Of a DNA stretch of 64,000 nt, positions 8,010-51,123 are shown one piece after another. A program made the position numbers and the translations under genes. The stretch is taken from contig JAITKV010000049.1 in the NCBI GenBank assembly GCA_031278215.1, forward strand, positions 1 through 64,000. Direction: 5' to 3'. The number at the start of each line of letters is the position of its first letter. The stretch's first letter is position 1. Origin of the DNA: Spirochaetaceae bacterium (lineage in GTDB: Bacteria > Spirochaetota > Spirochaetia > Treponematales > Breznakiellaceae). Under the pieces are notes generated by a model. The model made no database searches and was not told the origin of the DNA. It worked only from the letters and a program-made list of their open reading frames with translations.

Positions 8010-8133
8010 GGAAACGCCGATTATTCCCTGACAATTTTAAATTGTCAGGGCACTCCGATTGTAATTGTTTGTCAGGCAAAGAATTAGCTGTTCCTTGCCT
8101 GACAAACCAAAATCGATTGTGTATAAATAACGT
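8010..8133 (+). repeat. Dispersed hairpin/promoter element, copy A
   Basis: Begins GGAAACGCCGATTATTCC right after the pfk stop. Hairpin 1 is at 8026-8050 (CCCTGACAATTT and its complement). Hairpin 2 has 13-bp perfect arms, GTTTGTCAGGCAA (8067-8079) and TTGCCTGACAAAC (8095-8107). Then CTGACA (8099-8104), 17-bp spacer, TATAAA (8122-8127), an outward promoter. It matches the reverse complement of 53161-53302 over nearly its full length but lacks the far inverted end. Confidence 0.85.
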
Positions 8134-37492: not shown

Positions 37493-37853
37493 TGGAGGTG
37501 GCGGGAATTGAACCCGCGTCCTAATACGCGGCACACAGACATCTACAGGTTTAGCCGCCTGTTAAATTGTCGGGAAAGGCTTGGCTAGACAGCACGCGGC
37601 CCCTCCGTATTCCGGGTAATCTTACCGTTTCCCCTCCGGACGCGAAGAAACAGCCAGCCTTGTTTGCGACGGAAATTCGGCCCCTCAAGGCGGCGGGGCC
37701 GGTTTCCGCGTTCCCGCGCTTACGCGGCGAGAGCGTAACTGTCGTTGTCGGCAGTTAAATTTTTTGCCGAGTTAAGGAGATCGGCATGGACTTTCGTCCG
37801 CTCCACCTGCAGCCTGTATCCCGAACCGTACCAGTCGAAACCGGTGCACCCCC
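37493..37853 (-). ncRNA. ssrA: Transfer-messenger RNA (tmRNA)
   Basis: About 361 bases. The 5' end GGGGGTG (37853-37847) pairs with CACCTCC (37500-37494), followed by discriminator A (37493). CCA is not encoded. The T-arm reads GGGTTCAATTCCC, typical of tmRNA. The tag frame runs from 37767 to the stop at 37720 and encodes AKNLTADNDSYALAA, ending in the protease-recognised ALAA. Rescues stalled ribosomes with SmpB. ClpC elsewhere in the window may help degrade tagged proteins. No plus-strand protein gene is supported here. Confidence 0.95.
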
Positions 37854-39103: not shown

Positions 39104-40771
39104 TCATACCGTCCGGGGCGGTTCTTTTACCCTAACCGCCCTGCTGTCCGAAATCCGAACACTTGGGGCGTTCTGCGGCGGTTCCCCGGAACCCGGTGCG
39201 GCGGCGTGCTCCGGCGGTTTCCCGAAGCCCGGCGCTGCGGCGTGCGGCGGTTCCCCGGCGCCCGGTACGGCGGCGAGTTCCGGCGGTTCTTCGGCGCCCG
39301 GTGCGGCGGCGAGTTCCGGCGGTTCCCCGAAAGCCGGCGCTGCGGCGTGCGGCGGTTCCCCGGCGCCCGGTGCGGCTGCGTGTTCCGGCGGTTCCCCGGA
39401 ACCCGGTGCGGCGGCGTGTTCCGGCGGTTTTCCGAAAGCCGGTGCGGCGGTCTGCAGTGGTTCCCCGAAACCCGGCGCGGCAGCGTGTTCCGGCGTCTTT
39501 TTTTCTTCTTCCACCAGGGCGCGGATGGAACTAGTAAGGCATCCGGCGTCTTCCACGGCTTTTTCCAATTCCGTTTTTAGCCGGGTATATTCCGGCTCGT
39601 ATTTCTCCGTGATCCGGGTAAGCTGTTCCGCCAGCGCCGCGGCGTATTCCCGCCACTCCGTAAGATCCGGGCCGCTGCCGGGGGCCCCTGCGGGGCTGCG
39701 GGAATATTCGGAAGAAAGGGCGGTTAAAAACTGCCCGATTGTCCCCACGGTCCGCCCGGTTTTTTCCATGGTTTTTGACAGGGCTTCTCCGGCTATTACT
39801 CCGGCCTTTGCTTTTTCCCCTATGGTTTTAACTTCCACCTGGATCTGCTTGGCGTTGGTTTCGGTGGATTCGGCAAGTTTTTTTATTTCTTCCGCGACCA
39901 CCGCAAAGCCCGCCCCGGCGGATCCGGCGTGGGCGCTTTCTATGGCGGCGTTCATGGACAGTATGTTGGTCTGGGCGGAGATGCGGTTTATCATTCCCGC
40001 AAGGCCGGTAATTTTTTCCATGCTCCCCGCAATGCCGTTTATAAGTTCCCTTACCGCCTTGCTTTGAATGGTTCCTTCGGCGATCTTCATTTGAAGCTCA
40101 TCGGTCCCGCGAAGGGCCCCGGCAAATTCCGCGGTCCCGGCGGTACTTTTTTTCGCGGAGGGCTCCGGCGGGGCTAAGGATTCCATCCGGGGCTTTCCCA
40201 AAACTTCAGTCATCTGTATCCGGATTTCTTCCACCGTATCCAGGGCGTTTTTAAGGGCCCCCTCAATGGCCGGTGTTTTATCCGCGATTTGCTCCAGGCT
40301 GTTTCTGGTTTGGCCGGCCCTTTGCCTAGCCCGGGATCTGATGTCCTGCAGCTCCTCCAGGGCCCTTTCGCTTTCCGCGTGCTTGTTTGTAACTTTGGCA
40401 AGCTCTTCCCGGAGCAGGGTCTTTTCATCCTCGAGCCGGGCCTTTTCCGCATTAAGCTGTTCTTTTTCTTCCCATGCCCGTGTTGTTTCGGCCCGGAGGG
40501 TCCGCAGAAGGGCAAAAAGGACCGTAAGCCCCAGCAGCACGATACAGGTTTCTCCCAGGGCAATGCGAAGGATCCCGATTCCGCCCTGGTTCTGTACCGC
40601 GGCGCCGTCTATGGACCGAAAGAACGGGTAAGTTAAGGCCCATGAAGCGGCTACGGCCGCCAGGATCATAAGGGCCGCGGCAAAAAACGGTATTTTTATC
40701 TTCATTCGCGGCGGGCTTTGGGGCTCTGGAACCCGCCCCTCGGCGGGGGGGCCTTGGGTGGAAAGGTTCAT
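39104..40771 (-). CDS. Chemoreceptor-like (MCP signalling domain) protein with proline-rich repeat tail
   Basis: 555 residues. Two membrane helices near the N-terminus ([18 protein letters not shown] and [20 protein letters not shown]) enclose only about 30 periplasmic residues, so there is no ligand-binding domain. A coiled coil follows, then the MCP hairpin tip region [23 protein letters not shown] and [23 protein letters not shown]. The last 130 residues are about ten copies of a 12-residue Gly-Glu-Pro-Pro-x-x-Ala-Ala-Ala-Pro unit. It overlaps the dCMP deaminase stop by 4 bases and shares its promoter. Confidence 0.88.
39163..39495 (-). repeat. 36-bp coding tandem repeats in the chemoreceptor-like gene
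   Basis: About nine to ten degenerate 36-bp units encoding [12 protein letters not shown] variants ([36 protein letters not shown]). All length changes are multiples of three, so the frame is kept. The opposite strand shows an open frame of Arg/Val/Pro repeats that is only its mirror. Confidence 0.85.
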
Positions 40772-43319: not shown

Positions 43320-44315
43320 ATGGATACGAGAAAAAACCTGCCCAGAACGGCGCTTGCCCGGATTTACTTTATTGACCAGCAGATTGCGTCGGGGAAATAC
43401 CCCAATGTCAATTATTTGGCAAAGGAATACGAAGCCGGCACGGCGACCATTTACCGCGATATTGAGTATATGCGGGATATGCTCGGCGCCCCTATTGAAT
43501 ACTGCGCGAAAAACCGGGGCTGGTTTTATGCGGAAAAATCCTTTCGCCTGCCCGCCCGCTTTGCCGCGGCCAATGATATGCTGGCCCTGGGCATGGCAAA
43601 GAACCTCCTCTCCCTCTATCGGGATACGCCGCTCTACAATTCGGCCAAACGGCTTTTGGACGATATTACCGCCCCGTTAACAAAAGACAATTTTGAAAAA
43701 GACGATTCCGTCCCCTGGTATGAAAACCGCATTGTTGTCCCGCCCGTGGCCTCCGCCCCGGTTAACCCCGGTACATGGGAGCGCGTCATTTCCGCCATGC
43801 GCGAAAACCGCCTGCTTGCCTTTGAGTATTACGGGATATGGGATGACCGGTATAAGAGCCGGCTGGTCCGGCCCTATCAGCTTCTTTTTGACAACGGGGT
43901 CTGGTTTCTCTACGGGTATGCGGAAGAACGGGCCGGCATCAGGATATTTAATCTTTCCCGGATGAAAAACGTGTCTTTGACCAATGAAACCTTTACACTG
44001 CCTGAGGATTATGATTATATCGCCCGGACCGATGGCAGCTATTTCGGCGTTTTTGCCGGCAAGAAATACCGGTTCAAAATCGCTCTTAATAAAGCCGGCG
44101 CGCAATGGGCCGGGGAACGGAAATGGGCGGCGGATCAGACGATTAAAGAAAAAGATACGGGGTTTATCGTTGAGTTTACGTCGACCCAATACAACCGGGT
44201 GCTTGAATGGGTTCTTTCCCGGGGCGCCGACGCGTATCCCCTTGAGCCTGCGGCGCTGGCATCGGAATGGAAAAAACACGTCCGGGGAATGATGAAAAAG
44301 TTTGAAGGATCATGA
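43320..44315 (+). CDS. YafY-type HTH/WYL-domain transcription regulator
   Basis: 331 residues. N-terminal winged helix (about 10-70; LAKEYEAGTATIYRDIEYMRDMLGAPIEY), WYL domain (about 160-235; ENRLLAFEYYGIWDDRYKSRLVRPYQLLFDNGVWFLYGYAEER) and a C-terminal WCX-like domain. WYL regulators bind nucleic-acid-like or small ligands and often sit in defence or DNA-repair loci. The start has no evident ribosome site; TTGACA occurs at 43292 without a matching -10. Codon choice looks less CCGG-rich than its neighbours, in line with transfer together with the radical-SAM fragment. Confidence 0.88.
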   Translation: MDTRKNLPRTALARIYFIDQQIASGKYPNVNYLAKEYEAGTATIYRDIEYMRDMLGAPIEYCAKNRGWFYAEKSFRLPARFAAANDMLALGMAKNLLSLYRDTPLYNSAKRLLDDITAPLTKDNFEKDDSVPWYENRIVVPPVASAPVNPGTWERVISAMRENRLLAFEYYGIWDDRYKSRLVRPYQLLFDNGVWFLYGYAEERAGIRIFNLSRMKNVSLTNETFTLPEDYDYIARTDGSYFGVFAGKKYRFKIALNKAGAQWAGERKWAADQTIKEKDTGFIVEFTSTQYNRVLEWVLSRGADAYPLEPAALASEWKKHVRGMMKKFEGS

Positions 44316-44327
44316 TTTCCGGTCAAC

Positions 44328-44437
44328 GGGGAACATATTCCTTGACAATTTTAAATTGTCAGGGGCCCTTTTCGCAAACACTTTTTATGGGTGTAATTTG
44401 TTGCATTGACAAACCCTTTACGGTTTTTTATAATAAG
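44328..44437 (+). repeat. Dispersed hairpin/promoter element, diverged copy D
   Basis: GGGGAACATATTCC, hairpin 1 (TTGACAATTT...AAATTGTCAGG, 44342-44364), GGTGTAATTTGTT, then TTGACAAACC followed by a TATAATAA box. The order and core sequences match copy A (GGAAACGCCGATTATTCC, hairpin 1, TTGTAATTGTTTG, CTGACAAACC, TATAAATAA), with most of hairpin 2 deleted. Confidence 0.65.
44406..44434 (+). promoter_or_regulatory. Consensus promoter of the Cas2-like/prfB operon
   Basis: TTGACA (44406-44411), 17-bp spacer, TATAAT (44429-44434), both perfect, then 5 bases and ATG 44440, so the message is leaderless. It corresponds to the outward promoter of the dispersed element. Confidence 0.85.
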
Positions 44438-44439
44438 CT

Positions 44440-44802
44440 ATGTTTGTATCAATTGCCGTAGATCCCGGTTCGGAGGGAAGAGCAAAAGAATTGGCGGAAC
44501 TGCTTATTCAGTACGGATTTGATAAGGTTCAGCGGGGTCTTTGGGAGTCCACCGTGGTTTCTCCGGAAACCCTAAGCCGTATCAAACGGGATCTGGACCG
44601 GGCCACCGACGCCTTTGACCGGCTTAGGATATTCCAGTTTCCCGTGGACGGTACGCTGGTCCTAAGCACCCTGCGGGAAAAAAAGTGGCGGCGCCTGGTT
44701 GCCCGGGGCGGGGAGGCGCCGGTACAGCCGGTTCGGGCAGTACAGACCCCGCCGTCGCGTAGTCAAGTCAGGCCCGTGCGGATGGCGCGCCGGGGCAGAT
44801 AG
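44440..44802 (+). CDS. Cas2-like small protein upstream of prfB
   Basis: 120 residues. The pattern matches the Cas2 ferredoxin-like fold: strand 1 MFVSIAVDPGSEGRAKELAELL with an Asp at position 8, YGFDKVQRGLWES, then a helix SRIKRDLDRATDAFDRLRIF and a strand ending FPVDGTL. The last 35 residues are basic and Pro/Arg-rich (RSQVRPVRMARRGR), unlike Cas2. No CRISPR array, cas1 or other cas gene is in the window. It is 17 bp upstream of prfB and shares its promoter. A housekeeping or solitary nuclease role is possible; the assignment rests on pattern alone. Confidence 0.6.
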   Translation: MFVSIAVDPGSEGRAKELAELLIQYGFDKVQRGLWESTVVSPETLSRIKRDLDRATDAFDRLRIFQFPVDGTLVLSTLREKKWRRLVARGGEAPVQPVRAVQTPPSRSQVRPVRMARRGR

Positions 44803-44819: not shown

Positions 44820-45948
44820 ATGTTGTTGAATGAGCTGGGAAGTCCCGTGGCGGAACTTTCCGCAAAAATCCTTGATACCTGGAGGCGTCTTTGAAGAGCC
44901 CCAGGGGGCTCCTAATTCAAAAAAGACCATAAAAGAACGCATTAGGGAACTGGAAGATGAGTCCGGAAAGGCTGGTTTCTGGAACGACAGTTCCAGGGCA
45001 GAAAAATGCATGGGAGAACTTAAGGCCCTAAAAAGCCGGTATGATCCCTGGCGGCTTTTAAAGGCCGACGTGGAGGATCTTTCGGCCCTGCTGGAACTGG
45101 CAAACGAAGCGGGGGACGAATCCCAGAGCCGCGAAATCGAAGAAACCCTAAAAAACATATCCCTGCGCTATACAAAGCAGAATTTGCTGGAACTTATGTC
45201 CGGGGAAGTGGACAAGAACGGCTGCTTCCTTTCGGTCCACGCCGGCGCCGGGGGCACCGAAGCCTGCGACTGGGCGGGAATGCTCTACCGCATGTACCTG
45301 CGCTGGGCCGAACGCCGGGGTTTTGCCGTAGAAGAGGTGGATATGCTCGAGGCCGAGGGGGGAATAAAATCCGCCACCTGCAAGATCGAGGGGGCCTATG
45401 CGTACGGTTACCTTAAGGGGGAATCGGGGGTTCACCGGCTGGTACGGATTTCTCCCTTTGACGCCAACGCCCGGCGGCATACCTCCTTTGCATCGGTCTA
45501 TGCCTTTCCTGTCCTGGATGATTCCATCGAGGTGGAAATTAAGAGCGAGGATCTGCGGGTAGACACCTACCGTTCCGGCGGCGCCGGGGGGCAGCATGTA
45601 AACAAAACCGACAGTGCGGTGCGGTTTACCCATCTGCCCACGGGAATTGTGGCGGCATGTCAAAGCGAGCGGAGCCAAACCATGAACCGGGCTACCGCCA
45701 TGAGTATGCTTAAGGCCCGGCTTTATGAACACTACCGGCAGGAAAAGGAAAAAGAAAACGAACGCTTTGCCCAGGAAAAAAAAGATATTTCCTGGGGAAA
45801 CCAGATCCGGTCTTATGTGTTTCAACCCTATACGATGGTTAAGGATTACCGGACCAAGGCTGAATCGGGAAATATCCAGGCGATTATGGACGGGGACATT
45901 GATATGTTTATCGAAGAATATTTAAAATATACAATTAATAACGGATAG
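44820..45948 (+). CDS. prfB: Peptide chain release factor 2, with programmed +1 frameshift
   Basis: Frame 0 starts ATG 44820 and reads MLLNELGSPVAELSAKILDTW then RRL, stopping at TGA 44892-44894. A +1 shift at CTT-TGA (44889-44894) continues as EEPQGAPNSKKTIKERIRELE to 45948, for a total of about 375 residues. GGAGG (44881-44885) precedes CTT by three bases, as in the known autoregulatory prfB site. SPF anticodon-like motif in VRISPFDANARRH and GGQ in GGAGGQHVNKTDSAVR are present. Reads UGA and UAA stops. A downstream-only start at 44830 in the second frame lacks a ribosome site. Confidence 0.95.
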
Positions 45949-45952
45949 GACG

Positions 45953-47611
45953 GTGAAAAAAAATATGCCGCGGGGCGCTTCGGCCTGCAGATCCTGGAGA
46001 CGGTATCTCTTGTTGTTTGCCGTGCTGTGCCCGGCGCTTTCCCTTTTTGCCCGGGGAAAACAAGAAGAGCCGCCGCCGGCGCCCATCCATGGAGAATTTG
46101 TCCTTTGTGTTACCGCCTTTGACGTATCCGATCTGCCCCCTTCCCAGAAAACCCTGGGCTTTGTACTACAGCGTGAACTGGTCCGGGATTTGGGCGCTAT
46201 TCCCTACCGGCTGCGCAGCGGGGAAGAACTCCTCCGTTACCGGGAACTTGCCCGGCTCGCGGCAATGCAGGGCGCGGCAAGCCGCCTGGCAGAAAAGCGG
46301 TCGGAACGGGACGCCCTGTTATACCAGGGCCTTCCAAACTGGAAATACAAAAAAGAACTAAAACGGGTGGCGGAGGAACTTCGGGTGCTGGAAGAAGATT
46401 TTGCCAAAGCCGAAGAACAGGACCCCCCGATCGAAGCCAAGCCCCTTTTTACAATAAGCGCCGTCAATACCGGCGAAGGCTCCGGGCCGCCGGAGGGAGA
46501 AGATGACCCGGCGGCGGCCTTTCCCCCGCCGCCGGCCCGGGGAGACGAGGAAGCGTTTCTGTGGGCCCATAATGCCGATGCGGTGCTAACCGGGACGCTG
46601 CGTTTTTTTTACGGCCGGATCTATGCGGAGTTTCGGATCTTTACCCGGGGCGGTTCCTTTGTGTACGAAGATTCGACGATCTTTTCTCCCGAAGATTTTA
46701 ACGAAGCTTCGGATGAATTAAAGGCCCGGTTCCTCGCCGCCCTGTCCAACACCGAACCCGCCCGGCTTGTGGTTCATACGGAACCGGAACAGGCCGGGAT
46801 CCTGGTAAATGAAAGAGCCGTAAAAAGCGGGGAAGAACTGATACTTTTTCCCGGACCGGTATCTATCTCTGTTACTGCGGAGGATTATTACCATGAGCTA
46901 AAGGATGCGGAATTGGCGGAAGGGGAAAAAGCCGAATACTCGTTTACCCTTAGCCCCAAGCGCATGGAAACCCTGGGCCTGGCCCTTACCGGGCTTGACG
47001 CGTCCGTATATCTGGGGGCCCTGTACCTGGGGGGCGGCGGGACGGAAAAGAACGAAGATGGGGCGGAAAGCGCCGGAGCGGAAGCGGCGGAAACAGAAAC
47101 GGCGGATCCAAGGACCGCGGAACCCGGAGGGCCGGAGATTTTTATTCTGTCCATTCCCGCCGGAGAGTACCGGTATATCCGGGTCGATACCGAAGACGGG
47201 CTTACGGGGGAAGTAATTGTAAAGGGTTCCCTTGAGGACCTGGAACGCCGGTTTTTACAAGCGGATCCTTCCGCCGGGGATCCGGGGATTCGGACCATAA
47301 CCCTTAATCCCCGGAGGCTGCCGGGGCCGGATGATAAACCGGTGGAGCGGCGGCGGCAAAAATTTTACGGCGCCTATGGCAGGTTTTGGGTAACCCTGCC
47401 GCTGGCGTTTATCATCAACGGCGTCTACCAATCCTACGCCAATTCGTATAACACCTCCGGGGCACAGGATCTGTACGACAAGGCCATGACATCCTACTAC
47501 GTTTCCATCGGCGCGTGGGTTGTGGCCGGCGCCTTCCTTGTGGAATCCCTAATACGTTTGGGCGTCTATGTACATACCGCGAACGAAGAATCGATTCCCC
47601 TGTGGGAATAA
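45953..47611 (+). CDS. Exported PEGA-domain protein
   Basis: 552 residues. Start GTG 45953 close behind AGGA, or ATG 45965. Signal peptide about 1-35 (RRYLLLFAVLCPALSLFARG). A charged helical region follows, then a PEGA-like beta domain near residue 265-320 (PARLVVHTEPEQAGILVNERAVKSGEELILFPGPVSISV). An acidic linker (about 365-385, many Ala/Glu) and two late hydrophobic stretches (FWVTLPLAFIINGVYQSY, YVSIGAWVVAGAFLVESLI) suggest membrane anchoring at the C-terminus. Common in spirochaetes; function unknown. It begins 4 bases after prfB, so the operon continues. Confidence 0.82.
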   Translation: MKKNMPRGASACRSWRRYLLLFAVLCPALSLFARGKQEEPPPAPIHGEFVLCVTAFDVSDLPPSQKTLGFVLQRELVRDLGAIPYRLRSGEELLRYRELARLAAMQGAASRLAEKRSERDALLYQGLPNWKYKKELKRVAEELRVLEEDFAKAEEQDPPIEAKPLFTISAVNTGEGSGPPEGEDDPAAAFPPPPARGDEEAFLWAHNADAVLTGTLRFFYGRIYAEFRIFTRGGSFVYEDSTIFSPEDFNEASDELKARFLAALSNTEPARLVVHTEPEQAGILVNERAVKSGEELILFPGPVSISVTAEDYYHELKDAELAEGEKAEYSFTLSPKRMETLGLALTGLDASVYLGALYLGGGGTEKNEDGAESAGAEAAETETADPRTAEPGGPEIFILSIPAGEYRYIRVDTEDGLTGEVIVKGSLEDLERRFLQADPSAGDPGIRTITLNPRRLPGPDDKPVERRRQKFYGAYGRFWVTLPLAFIINGVYQSYANSYNTSGAQDLYDKAMTSYYVSIGAWVVAGAFLVESLIRLGVYVHTANEESIPLWE

Positions 47612-47617
47612 AGCTCT

Positions 47618-47672
47618 CCGCCGCGAGTTTGCAGGCTGCGCTTGCGCGGGGTATGACCCCGCCGCGGCTGAA
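47618..47672 (+). repeat. GC-rich REP-like repeat, copy 2 (upstream of ftsY)
   Basis: CCGCCGCGAGTTTGCAGGCT, GCGCTTGCGCGGGGTATGAC, then CCCGCCGCGG. Shares GCAGGCTGCGCTTGCG and a GGGGTAT..CCCC hairpin with copy 1 (2520-2575). It lies between the PEGA gene and ftsY. Confidence 0.6.
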
Positions 47673-47699
47673 TCGAAATTTTGCAAAGGTTTGAAAAAC

Positions 47700-48584
47700 A
47701 TGGGTTTTGCCGCTAAGATAAAAGATTTTTTTGGATTTACCGGCCCCCTGCCGGAAGGGTTTTTTGATGATCTGGAGGATCTGCTGGTAGAGGGGGATCT
47801 GGGCCCCGGCCTGGCGGTAAAACTGGTAGGCCGGCTTCAGGAACTTTCCAAAAAAGAAAAAATCACCGAACCCGGCCCCCTGCGGGAACGGTTTGCAAAA
47901 CTGCTTGAAGACGGACTTAAGGTCCTGGATCCCGATACGCTGCTTAAGGGGGAATCTCCGGCGCTTATTCTGCTCTTGGGGGTAAACGGCACGGGAAAGA
48001 CCACCACCGCCGCCAAACTTGCCGCCCGGTACCGTGCCCGGGGAAGGAATCCGATTCTGGCGGCCGCGGACACATTTAGGGCCGGGGCGGTGGATCAGCT
48101 TAAAATACACGGCCAGCGGCTTAAGATACGGGTGGTGGCCCACCGGCAGGGGGGGGACCCGGCGGCGGTGGTCTACGACGCGATGGAAGCGGCCCTGGCC
48201 GGCGGGGGGGACCTTGTTATTGCCGATACCGCGGGACGGATGCACACCAGGACCGCATTGGTGGAGGAATTAAAAAAAATAGACCGGGTCCTGGAAACGA
48301 GGCTAAAGAAGCCGGAAACGGCGGCGCGGTGCATTAAATGGCTGGTGCTGGACGCTACCACGGGCCGCAATGCCTTGGCCCAGGCGGAGATATTTCACGG
48401 CGCCGTGCCTTTGGACGGGGTAATCCTAACCAAGTACGATTCCGGCGCCAGGGGGGGGGTGGTTTTTTCGCTCAGCGAGGAATTAAAGCTTCCTACGGTT
48501 TTTATTTGTGACGGGGAAGGGTATGAACATATTAGGCCCTTTGATCCGGCCGCCTTTGCCGAACGTTTTGCGGGCCGGAACTAA
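47700..48584 (+). CDS. ftsY: Signal recognition particle receptor FtsY
   Basis: 294 residues from ATG 47700 (MGFAAKIKDFFGF). N domain (about 1-75) and G domain: P-loop GVNGTGKTTTAAKLA, DTFRAGAVDQL, DTAGRMHT, TKYDSGARGG. The long acidic N-terminal A domain of E. coli FtsY is absent, as in many bacteria. With SRP it targets membrane proteins. The frame stays open to 47568 but that part spans the PEGA gene's end and a repeat. The ribosome site is weak (AAAGG). Confidence 0.94.
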   Translation: MGFAAKIKDFFGFTGPLPEGFFDDLEDLLVEGDLGPGLAVKLVGRLQELSKKEKITEPGPLRERFAKLLEDGLKVLDPDTLLKGESPALILLLGVNGTGKTTTAAKLAARYRARGRNPILAAADTFRAGAVDQLKIHGQRLKIRVVAHRQGGDPAAVVYDAMEAALAGGGDLVIADTAGRMHTRTALVEELKKIDRVLETRLKKPETAARCIKWLVLDATTGRNALAQAEIFHGAVPLDGVILTKYDSGARGGVVFSLSEELKLPTVFICDGEGYEHIRPFDPAAFAERFAGRN

Positions 48585-49755: not shown

Positions 49756-51123
49756 ATGGGGTGGATTGGGTTTATTGCGGGAAGGCTGGTAGCGCGAAAA
49801 CGGGGCGCCCCGGCGCCGGTGCTTTCTATTCTGGGCATAGCCGTGGGCGTCCTGGCTTTGACGGTGATTATCTCGGTAATGAACGGTTTTCAGCTAAGCT
49901 TTATCGAAAGCATTCTGGAAATTTCTTCCTATTATGTCAGAATAGAAAATCTTGCTTCGGAAAAAAATGACGGGGCCCTGGCCGACAAGGTTAAGGCCCT
50001 GCCGGAGGTAAGCGCCGTGGTTCCCTTTCGGGAGGTCCAGGCTCTGGTTCGGGGGGTATACGGTCAGCAGGCGGCGCTGATCCGGGGCTTGCGGAACAAC
50101 ACTGTTACCGAGGACCCGCGGATGATGGAAAAACTTGTTTTTGAAGAAGGATCCTTTGACCTGGAGGAGGAGGATTCGATTCTGCTGGGGGCGGAACTGG
50201 CGGCCCGGCTTCAGGTGGAACTGGGGGACCGCATACAGCTTATCTCCGTCGGCGGGCCCTTGACGGATCCGGCCGCCGCGGCGGGAGAGCCGGCGGGAGA
50301 GCCGGCGGGAATTCCGGCGGGAGAGCCGGCGGGAGAGCCGGCGGGAGAGCCGGCGGGAGAGCCGGAGGCCGAAACCGGGCCCCGGGAAATTTTCTTTACC
50401 CTCCGGGGCATTTTTCGGTCCGGGTTTTATGAATACGATCTGGGCTGGGGTTTTATTAACTTTGACAGGGCCGGGGAACTGGAAGGGCCCGGTTATACCC
50501 TGGGGCTTAAGCTTCGGGATCGCTGGCAGGATAGAAAGGCCGCGGCGGCCATGGCGGAGTTGACCCGCGGCGATCCCCTTGCCGGCCATATCAGGATACG
50601 AACCTGGCGGGACTTTAACCAGGCCTTTTTCGGCGCCCTAAGAACCGAAAAGCTTTTTATGTTTGTTCTGGTGGGGCTTATCTTTGTGGTGGTGGGCCTT
50701 AACATTTATCAGGCCCAGCGCCGGGTTGTTTTGGAACGGCGGGAAGAAATTGGACTGCTGCGGGCCCTGGGCGCCGGAGACCGGGCGGTAAGGCTTATTT
50801 TTGTGTGGGACGGATTTATTATCGGCATTACCGGCGCCGGTATAGGGATAGCCCTGGGGCTTCTTATCAGCCTTAATATTTCTACTTTTTTTTCGCTGCT
50901 GGAAAAGGCGGTAAACGGGATCCTGCTTCTGGTACGCCACGAGGGGGATTTTGCGGTTTTTTCTCCGGCGGTTTTTTATGTCAAAGAAATACAGGGCCGG
51001 GTAATTCCCCGGGAGGCGCTTTTAATCTTCTTCTTTGGGCTGTTTTCCGCCCTGGGAGCGGCATGGTTTGCATCGGGCCGGATATCTTGCATTAGACCGG
51101 CGGAGGTACTGCGGGATGAGTAA
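49756..51123 (+). CDS. LolC/LolE-type lipoprotein-releasing permease with Ala-Gly-Glu-Pro repeat
   Basis: 455 residues. N-terminal membrane helix (APVLSILGIAVGVLALTVIISVMNGFQ), large periplasmic domain, then three helices near the C-terminus (LFMFVLVGLIFVVVGLNIYQ, IIGITGAGIGIALGLLISL, ALLIFFFGLFSALGAAWFA). RRVVLERREEIGLLRALGAGDRAV is the FtsX/LolE loop. A seven-fold AGEP repeat is inserted in the periplasmic domain (residues about 176-205). It works with the ATPase and second permease that follow to extract lipoproteins from the inner membrane. It overlaps the ATPase gene by 8 bases. Confidence 0.9.
   Translation: MGWIGFIAGRLVARKRGAPAPVLSILGIAVGVLALTVIISVMNGFQLSFIESILEISSYYVRIENLASEKNDGALADKVKALPEVSAVVPFREVQALVRGVYGQQAALIRGLRNNTVTEDPRMMEKLVFEEGSFDLEEEDSILLGAELAARLQVELGDRIQLISVGGPLTDPAAAAGEPAGEPAGIPAGEPAGEPAGEPAGEPEAETGPREIFFTLRGIFRSGFYEYDLGWGFINFDRAGELEGPGYTLGLKLRDRWQDRKAAAAMAELTRGDPLAGHIRIRTWRDFNQAFFGALRTEKLFMFVLVGLIFVVVGLNIYQAQRRVVLERREEIGLLRALGAGDRAVRLIFVWDGFIIGITGAGIGIALGLLISLNISTFFSLLEKAVNGILLLVRHEGDFAVFSPAVFYVKEIQGRVIPREALLIFFFGLFSALGAAWFASGRISCIRPAEVLRDE
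50281..50364 (+). repeat. Seven 12-bp coding repeats in the LolC-like gene
   Basis: GCGGGAGAGCCG repeated at 50281, 50293, 50305 (variant GCGGGAATTCCG), 50317, 50329, 50341 and 50353. Encodes AGEP units in the periplasmic domain. Confidence 0.9.

Follow-up and report, generated by a model that had tools for sequence, protein, structure and literature searches.

A CRISPR-independent Cas2-superfamily gene, predicted to be leaderless, at the head of the prfB operon in Treponematales

CRISPR-free proteins of the Cas2/VapD type are already known, namely BPSL1038 and VapD. Nucleases of the Cas2 and VapD type are considered to work via a pair of beta-1 aspartates across the dimer (PMC10491678). Cleavage of RNA or DNA is known for VapD and some Cas2 proteins (PMC11980593), and BPSL1038 shows that CRISPR-free Cas2-fold proteins can be nucleases (PMC10491678). 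Why Cas2 has a nuclease site that is unneeded for CRISPR adaptation is a standing question (PMC3506569; PMC11980593). Leaderless mRNAs, which are relevant to the gene considered here, are initiated mostly by 70S ribosomes and are sensitive to initiation-factor levels (PMC9031893); the spirochaete terms searched for were not found in that review. The open literature searched, in which few subscription journals were covered, contained no solitary, orphan or solo Cas2, no combination of Cas2, prfB and Treponema, and no CRISPR-free Cas2 subfamily that heads the prfB operon throughout an order as a predicted leaderless cistron.

Gene cas2L was found in the window, i.e. the whole stretch of 64,000 nucleotides that was analysed (Table 1). 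We consider it to belong to the Cas2/VapD group, independent of CRISPR and inherited vertically, to form the leaderless first cistron of the prfB operon and to encode a probable homodimeric nuclease; the chances of this reading as a whole appear about even.

Table 1. Features of the cas2L-prfB region (window coordinates)
Feature	Position	Strand	Remarks
Dispersed 29-bp palindrome TATTCCTTGACAATTTTAAATTGTCAGGG	44336..44364	.	near-identical copy at 8022-8050
Sigma-70 promoter of the operon	44406..44434	+	TTGACA 44406-44411, 17-bp spacer, TATAAT 44429-44434
5-nt discriminator and start codon	44435..44442	+	predicted leaderless start; no Shine-Dalgarno
cas2L	44440..44802	+	120 aa; core residues 1-90, variable Pro/Arg tail 91-120
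prfB (release factor 2)	44820..45948	+	Pfam PCRF and RF-1; +1 programmed frameshift
RF2 frameshift site TGGAGGCGTCTTTGA	44880..44894	+	CTT TGA at 44889-44894
Downstream operon gene	45953..47611	+	no Pfam match; homologues after prfB in same-family relatives
ftsY (SRP receptor GTPase)	47568..48584	+	next gene downstream

The translation of the cas2L reading frame starts with MFVSIAVDPGSEGRAKELAELLIQYGFDKVQRGLWES. An earlier note, made from the sequence alone, had called the product a Cas2-like protein of 120 residues, and this superfamily assignment was borne out by orthologue profile matches, predicted fold and beta-1 aspartate. The profile search proposed there had a divided outcome: most orthologues matched Cas2 models, and the window protein alone stayed just under both curated cut-offs (Pfam PF09827: E 6.8e-5, 23.4 bits for a cut-off of 23.8; TIGR01573: 20.7 bits for a cut-off of 24.5). 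Several orthologues, including some from other families, exceeded the Pfam Cas2 cut-off, the best reaching 44 bits. PADLOC Cas2 models matched all 28 aligned orthologues (E<=0.1), TIGR01573 matched 26 of these 28 and Pfam Cas2 22 (E<=0.01). Comparison of the cas2L family with CRISPR Cas2 of the same phylum by hhalign gave 97.0 % (E 1.1e-10) over residues 1-66, and the matches of the family profile in the PDB were Cas2 or Cas2-like chains; a single-sequence phmmer search of the PDB with the window protein returned chance matches only. By these profile matches, the product of cas2L is a Cas2-superfamily protein. Since the hhalign match ends at residue 66, the C-terminal strand (KKWRR) is without counterpart in the aligned CRISPR Cas2s. 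The serine of the Cas2 QxSVFE motif is replaced in the cas2L family by a position that is mostly Ala, Gly or Ser.

An AlphaFold2 model of the protein, built with 28 sequences, displayed a core with pLDDT above 85 up to residue 90 and a disordered tail. Core elements were ordered strand-helix-strand-strand-helix-strand, followed by two further strands. Nearly all of the best 30 Foldseek matches were Cas2 structures, the top ones with probability 1.00 and a target TM-score of up to 0.72; VapD from H. influenzae was also among these 30. A single-sequence fold of one distant relative reached a pLDDT of 50 and was of no use. The predicted fold is thus ferredoxin-like and of the Cas2 type; a model of any other kind would have spoken against the earlier proposal.

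Gene prfB was visible at 139 of 150 cas2L loci, a count that includes repeats of the same genome, and it lay downstream on the same strand within 900 nt in 137. Among distinct genes with prfB in view, the prfB start was located -8 to +198 nt past the cas2L stop in 105 out of 106 (median 23). The 17 bp measured between the cas2L stop and the prfB ATG in the window agree with the distance given previously. The pair was conserved across Treponematales and in two other orders, as had been suggested for checking. Same strand, short gap, shared promoter and cross-species conservation mark cas2L as a member of the prfB operon. Exceptions were few. In one genome (G009, locus L150) cas2L and prfB were 1.4 kb apart; an ORF with a P-loop-like stretch (HAPRQTGKTTFLL) lies in that gap (L150 5303-6142, counted on the cas2L strand). 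In a dolphin oral Treponema (L070) and in G275, prfB was not the next gene, and none was present within 14 kb in the latter. An OLD/AAA-defence-like ATPase is found at the expected place of prfB in G275 (L138, 1773-3185, minus strand), convergent with and directly after cas2L. Six distant relatives were located away from prfB and mostly displayed Shine-Dalgarno starts, which is why the tie between cas2L and prfB should be regarded as genomic and lineage-specific.

The prfB gene reads from its ATG through 24 codons and then TGGAGGCGT CTT TGA (CTT TGA 44889-44894; TGA 44892-44894); a plain ORF listing places its start at 44830, which is too late and in the shifted frame. The RF2 frameshift site was present at 136 of 139 loci with cas2L and at 24 of 24 loci without it. 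As its presence does not depend on cas2L, the site is not specific to this gene, and a link between cas2L and RF2 frameshifting was rejected. The functional tie to translation termination envisaged in the earlier note drew no support from the frameshift site or from the distant relatives, which are separated from prfB. Neither the leader nor the intercistronic region matched a known RNA element at E<=1.

The promoter matches the sigma-70 consensus perfectly, as previously claimed. A consensus promoter followed by ATG after 5-8 nt occurred once in the window, for 0.02 expected. Of 118 distinct orthologues, 98 had a promoter of the TTGACA-17-TAnnnT type whose end was 5-9 nt from the AUG, versus 13 of 2360 shuffles; the spacer was nearly always 17 bp and the distance to the AUG most often 6 nt. 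Motifs resembling a Shine-Dalgarno sequence preceded four of 118 cas2L genes versus 100 of 105 prfB genes of the same loci. The initial methionine is anchored by homology, the Shine-Dalgarno-led starts of relatives falling on the same residue. Because the -10 box mostly ends 5-9 nt before the AUG, a Shine-Dalgarno is nearly always absent and the methionine is anchored, transcription is predicted to start on the A of the AUG or no more than 1-2 nt away, and the mRNA to be leaderless. At a few loci (L045, L047 and L051), the leaderless promoter is replaced by a GC-rich, hairpin-like stretch that carries GGAGAG ahead of the cas2L ATG.

Counted genome-wide, the promoter-ATG pattern occurred 14 times versus once in the reversed control in this genome, and 48 times versus once in G037. 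These counts led to rejection of the leaderless promoter as a feature of cas2L only. The pattern was many-fold above the reversed control in this genome (G000) and in G030, G031, G037, G040, G039 and G057, and leaderless genes therefore seem, from such pattern counts, to be a general class in treponemes.

The promoter had also been attributed to a dispersed element. The element concerned, a near-perfect palindrome (TATTCCCTGACAATTTTAAATTGTCAGGG) matched at about 40 other sites of the genome, resembles a REP or small palindromic intergenic element by its sequence. It ends 41 bp short of the -35 box, and the promoter geometry spans the order, so this attribution was abandoned; the palindrome is outside the promoter and no part of the cas2L-prfB system. 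Other features of the surroundings were recorded. A transcriptional regulator with WYL/WCX domains (43320-44315) is found directly upstream of cas2L in this genome; as a conserved neighbour it was rejected, being beside cas2L only here among the first 28 loci. A tmRNA gene (37493-37853, minus strand, tag ADNDSYALAA), which serves ribosome rescue, is located 7 kb from prfB. Low-complexity repeat units occur in a methyl-accepting-chemotaxis-like protein (39104-40771, minus strand), and AGEP repeat units in a LolC/E-like permease (49756-51123, plus strand).

Gene cas2L was present in 114 out of 204 good genomes of the Treponematales sample. Positive genomes harbored one copy each, the single exception being a gene divided between two contig fragments. 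Among the named carriers are Breznakiella homolactica, Brucepastera parasyntrophica, Gracilinema caldarium and Treponema parvum. In the phylum sample, cas2L was also found in two other orders (G140 and G279), adjoining prfB in both; the six more distant relatives belong to two families from another part of the phylum. Viral contigs and plasmids searched contained no relatives, and an origin from phages or plasmids was rejected on these grounds. Being absent from nearly half of the order, cas2L is dispensable. Loci without cas2L still have prfB, and at several of them a promoter of the same kind is found directly on prfB, such as TTGACA-17-TATTCT six bases 5' of the prfB ATG in G245 (L154). This suggests that the cas2L promoter is the operon promoter. 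A divergent gene, which to our reading has an FN3/TPR-like look in its sequence, lies next to cas2L at 87 of 129 carrier loci and directly precedes prfB at eight loci lacking cas2L. As judged from this gene order, such loci fit a first cistron that is dispensable and has repeatedly been deleted in place. Vertical inheritance at a constant site would be the best reading of the distribution.

Selection on the coding sequence was uneven. Pairwise dN/dS over codons 1-90 was ~0.02 (e.g. dN 0.005 versus dS 0.273), and dN equalled dS in the Pro/Arg tail (dN/dS ~1, one pair measured). These ratios indicate very strong purifying selection on the core and a neutral tail, which argues that the folded protein matters and the tail does not. 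The basic tail had been listed as a feature of the protein; it proved variable and without conservation across relatives. Residues E36, K49, D60, R63, P68 and W83 were invariant in all 113 non-redundant members and Q66 was present in 112. The strand-1 aspartate pointed out earlier (D8) was confirmed in 107 of 113, with Glu in five.

In the mechanism that we propose, one strong sigma-70 promoter would produce the prfB operon transcript with cas2L as its leaderless first cistron. Because of this position, the supply of cas2L product would follow transcription of the RF2 operon and 70S availability. Output of cas2L would track ribosome state, and RF2, further along the transcript, would be set by its own Shine-Dalgarno and frameshift; sharing the RF2 transcript might be of benefit. 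The product would form a homodimer of ferredoxin folds with a D8 pair and act as a D8-dependent, metal-dependent nuclease, on RNA more likely than on DNA, and without Cas1. A D8-dependent nuclease is the likeliest activity by analogy, since nucleases of the Cas2/VapD family are considered to act in this way. Counted against the preferred reading were the five members with E8 for D8, the altered QxSVFE serine position, the end of the hhalign match at residue 66, the absence from nearly half of the order and the sites away from prfB (G009, L070, G275 and the six relatives). A more specific version, in which a leaderless housekeeping nuclease from a CRISPR-free branch kept by spirochaetes acts in step with RF2 on ribosome-bound or stop-codon-stalled mRNA, is a long shot.

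The residue pattern also bears on a different proposal, namely that the protein has a Cas2 fold, does not cut, and binds nucleic acid or the ribosome, for instance as an RNA-binding autoregulator of the prfB operon. Autoregulators are commonly encoded as the first cistron of an operon, the place that cas2L occupies. The strictest residues are K49, D60, R63, Q66, P68 and W83 together with the basic C-terminal strand, not the classic catalytic set, and D8 is replaceable by Glu. Several points speak against it: D8 is retained in all but six members, neither leader nor intercistronic region offers a known RNA element, a leaderless mRNA provides no 5' UTR to bind, and distant relatives keep the protein away from prfB. 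This proposal deserves consideration and is on the unlikely side.

The pattern of inheritance raises another possibility: a small VapD-like defence or dormancy nuclease that came to lie by chance between promoter and prfB, in which case the linkage would be historical and prfB irrelevant. Passed on vertically at a constant site and repeatedly lost there, cas2L looks like a stress or defence gene that can be dispensed with. Relatives of the VapD and Cas2 type act as RNases or toxins (PMC3506569, PMC11980593), and unlinked relatives exist that are mostly Shine-Dalgarno-led. Against this stand the lack of an adjoining antitoxin gene, the absence from plasmids and viral contigs, and a purifying selection and slow change that are unlike those of fast-evolving defence genes. 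We regard such an origin as rather improbable.

Independence from CRISPR was judged on cas1 and its neighbouring Cas2. In keeping with what the earlier note had stated for the window, a search of this 80 % complete genome yielded no cas1. Presence of cas1 in some carriers would allow cas2L to be an out-lying Cas2 serving a Cas1 from another genomic site. Among the tested carriers that were at least 90 % complete, about half had no cas1, however, and nearly all carriers with cas1 displayed a separate Cas2 adjoining it; cas2L hence does not behave as the out-lying member of a distant CRISPR locus. In a tree based on 95 columns, prfB-linked and solo proteins grouped apart from type I/III Cas2. 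Rows of type II Cas2 joined the prfB side on a long branch in this poorly resolved tree, which is why strict monophyly of the prfB-linked proteins is not claimed. The service to a remote Cas1 is highly improbable on these grounds, and the independence of cas2L from cas1 is shown by sequence comparison. An upstream ORF that is non-functional or serves regulation only, so that its translation and not its product would matter, is suggested by a leaderless first cistron beside an autoregulated gene. This idea is hardly credible, being refuted by selection on the protein (dN/dS ~0.02 for 90 codons; six invariant residues among 113 sequences).

Under the preferred reading of cas2L as a CRISPR-independent nuclease of the prfB operon, a strongly selected Cas2 branch in a fixed place across an order would allow its own activity to be studied apart from Cas1, and a relative of a supposed immunity protein may have an everyday job. 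For spirochaetes, the gene also provides a case of a predicted leaderless mRNA that crosses family borders, with natural losses after which a promoter of this kind lies directly on prfB. A functional link with RF2, should there be one, would tie a CRISPR-family fold to the termination of translation.

Compared with CRISPR Cas2 (PF09827, TIGR01573), cas2L shares the ferredoxin-like fold, the beta-1 Asp, the VQ...FE motif and the D..R motif. It differs in having no cas1, and no array or effector noted in the window, in its C-terminal strand with KWRR, and in being distinct from the CRISPR-locus Cas2 of the same genomes. The BPSL1038 sub-family of Cas2/VapD nucleases from Burkholderia (PMC10491678) is likewise CRISPR-free, chromosomal and conserved, with Cas2 fold and Asp pair; its own D(X20)SST motif and C-terminal helix were not seen in the cas2L family, which in contrast heads the prfB operon. 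VapD of the VapXD, VapWD and VapYD systems (PMC11980593; PDB 6zi1, 6zn8) has the superfamily fold and beta-1 Asp in common with cas2L and is the weaker structural match (TM 0.63 versus ~0.7 for Cas2). No antitoxin-sized partner of the vapX, vapW or vapY type was seen beside cas2L at the loci read, unlike in those systems, and a VapD toxin-antitoxin was rejected for this reason. With respect to autoregulation of prfB by +1 frameshifting, the linked prfB possesses the standard site, which is kept whether cas2L is there or not. Described leaderless mRNAs (PMC9031893) and cas2L share the lack of a Shine-Dalgarno and an AUG that coincides with, or adjoins, the predicted 5' end; cas2L differs as one gene that keeps this geometry across a whole order.
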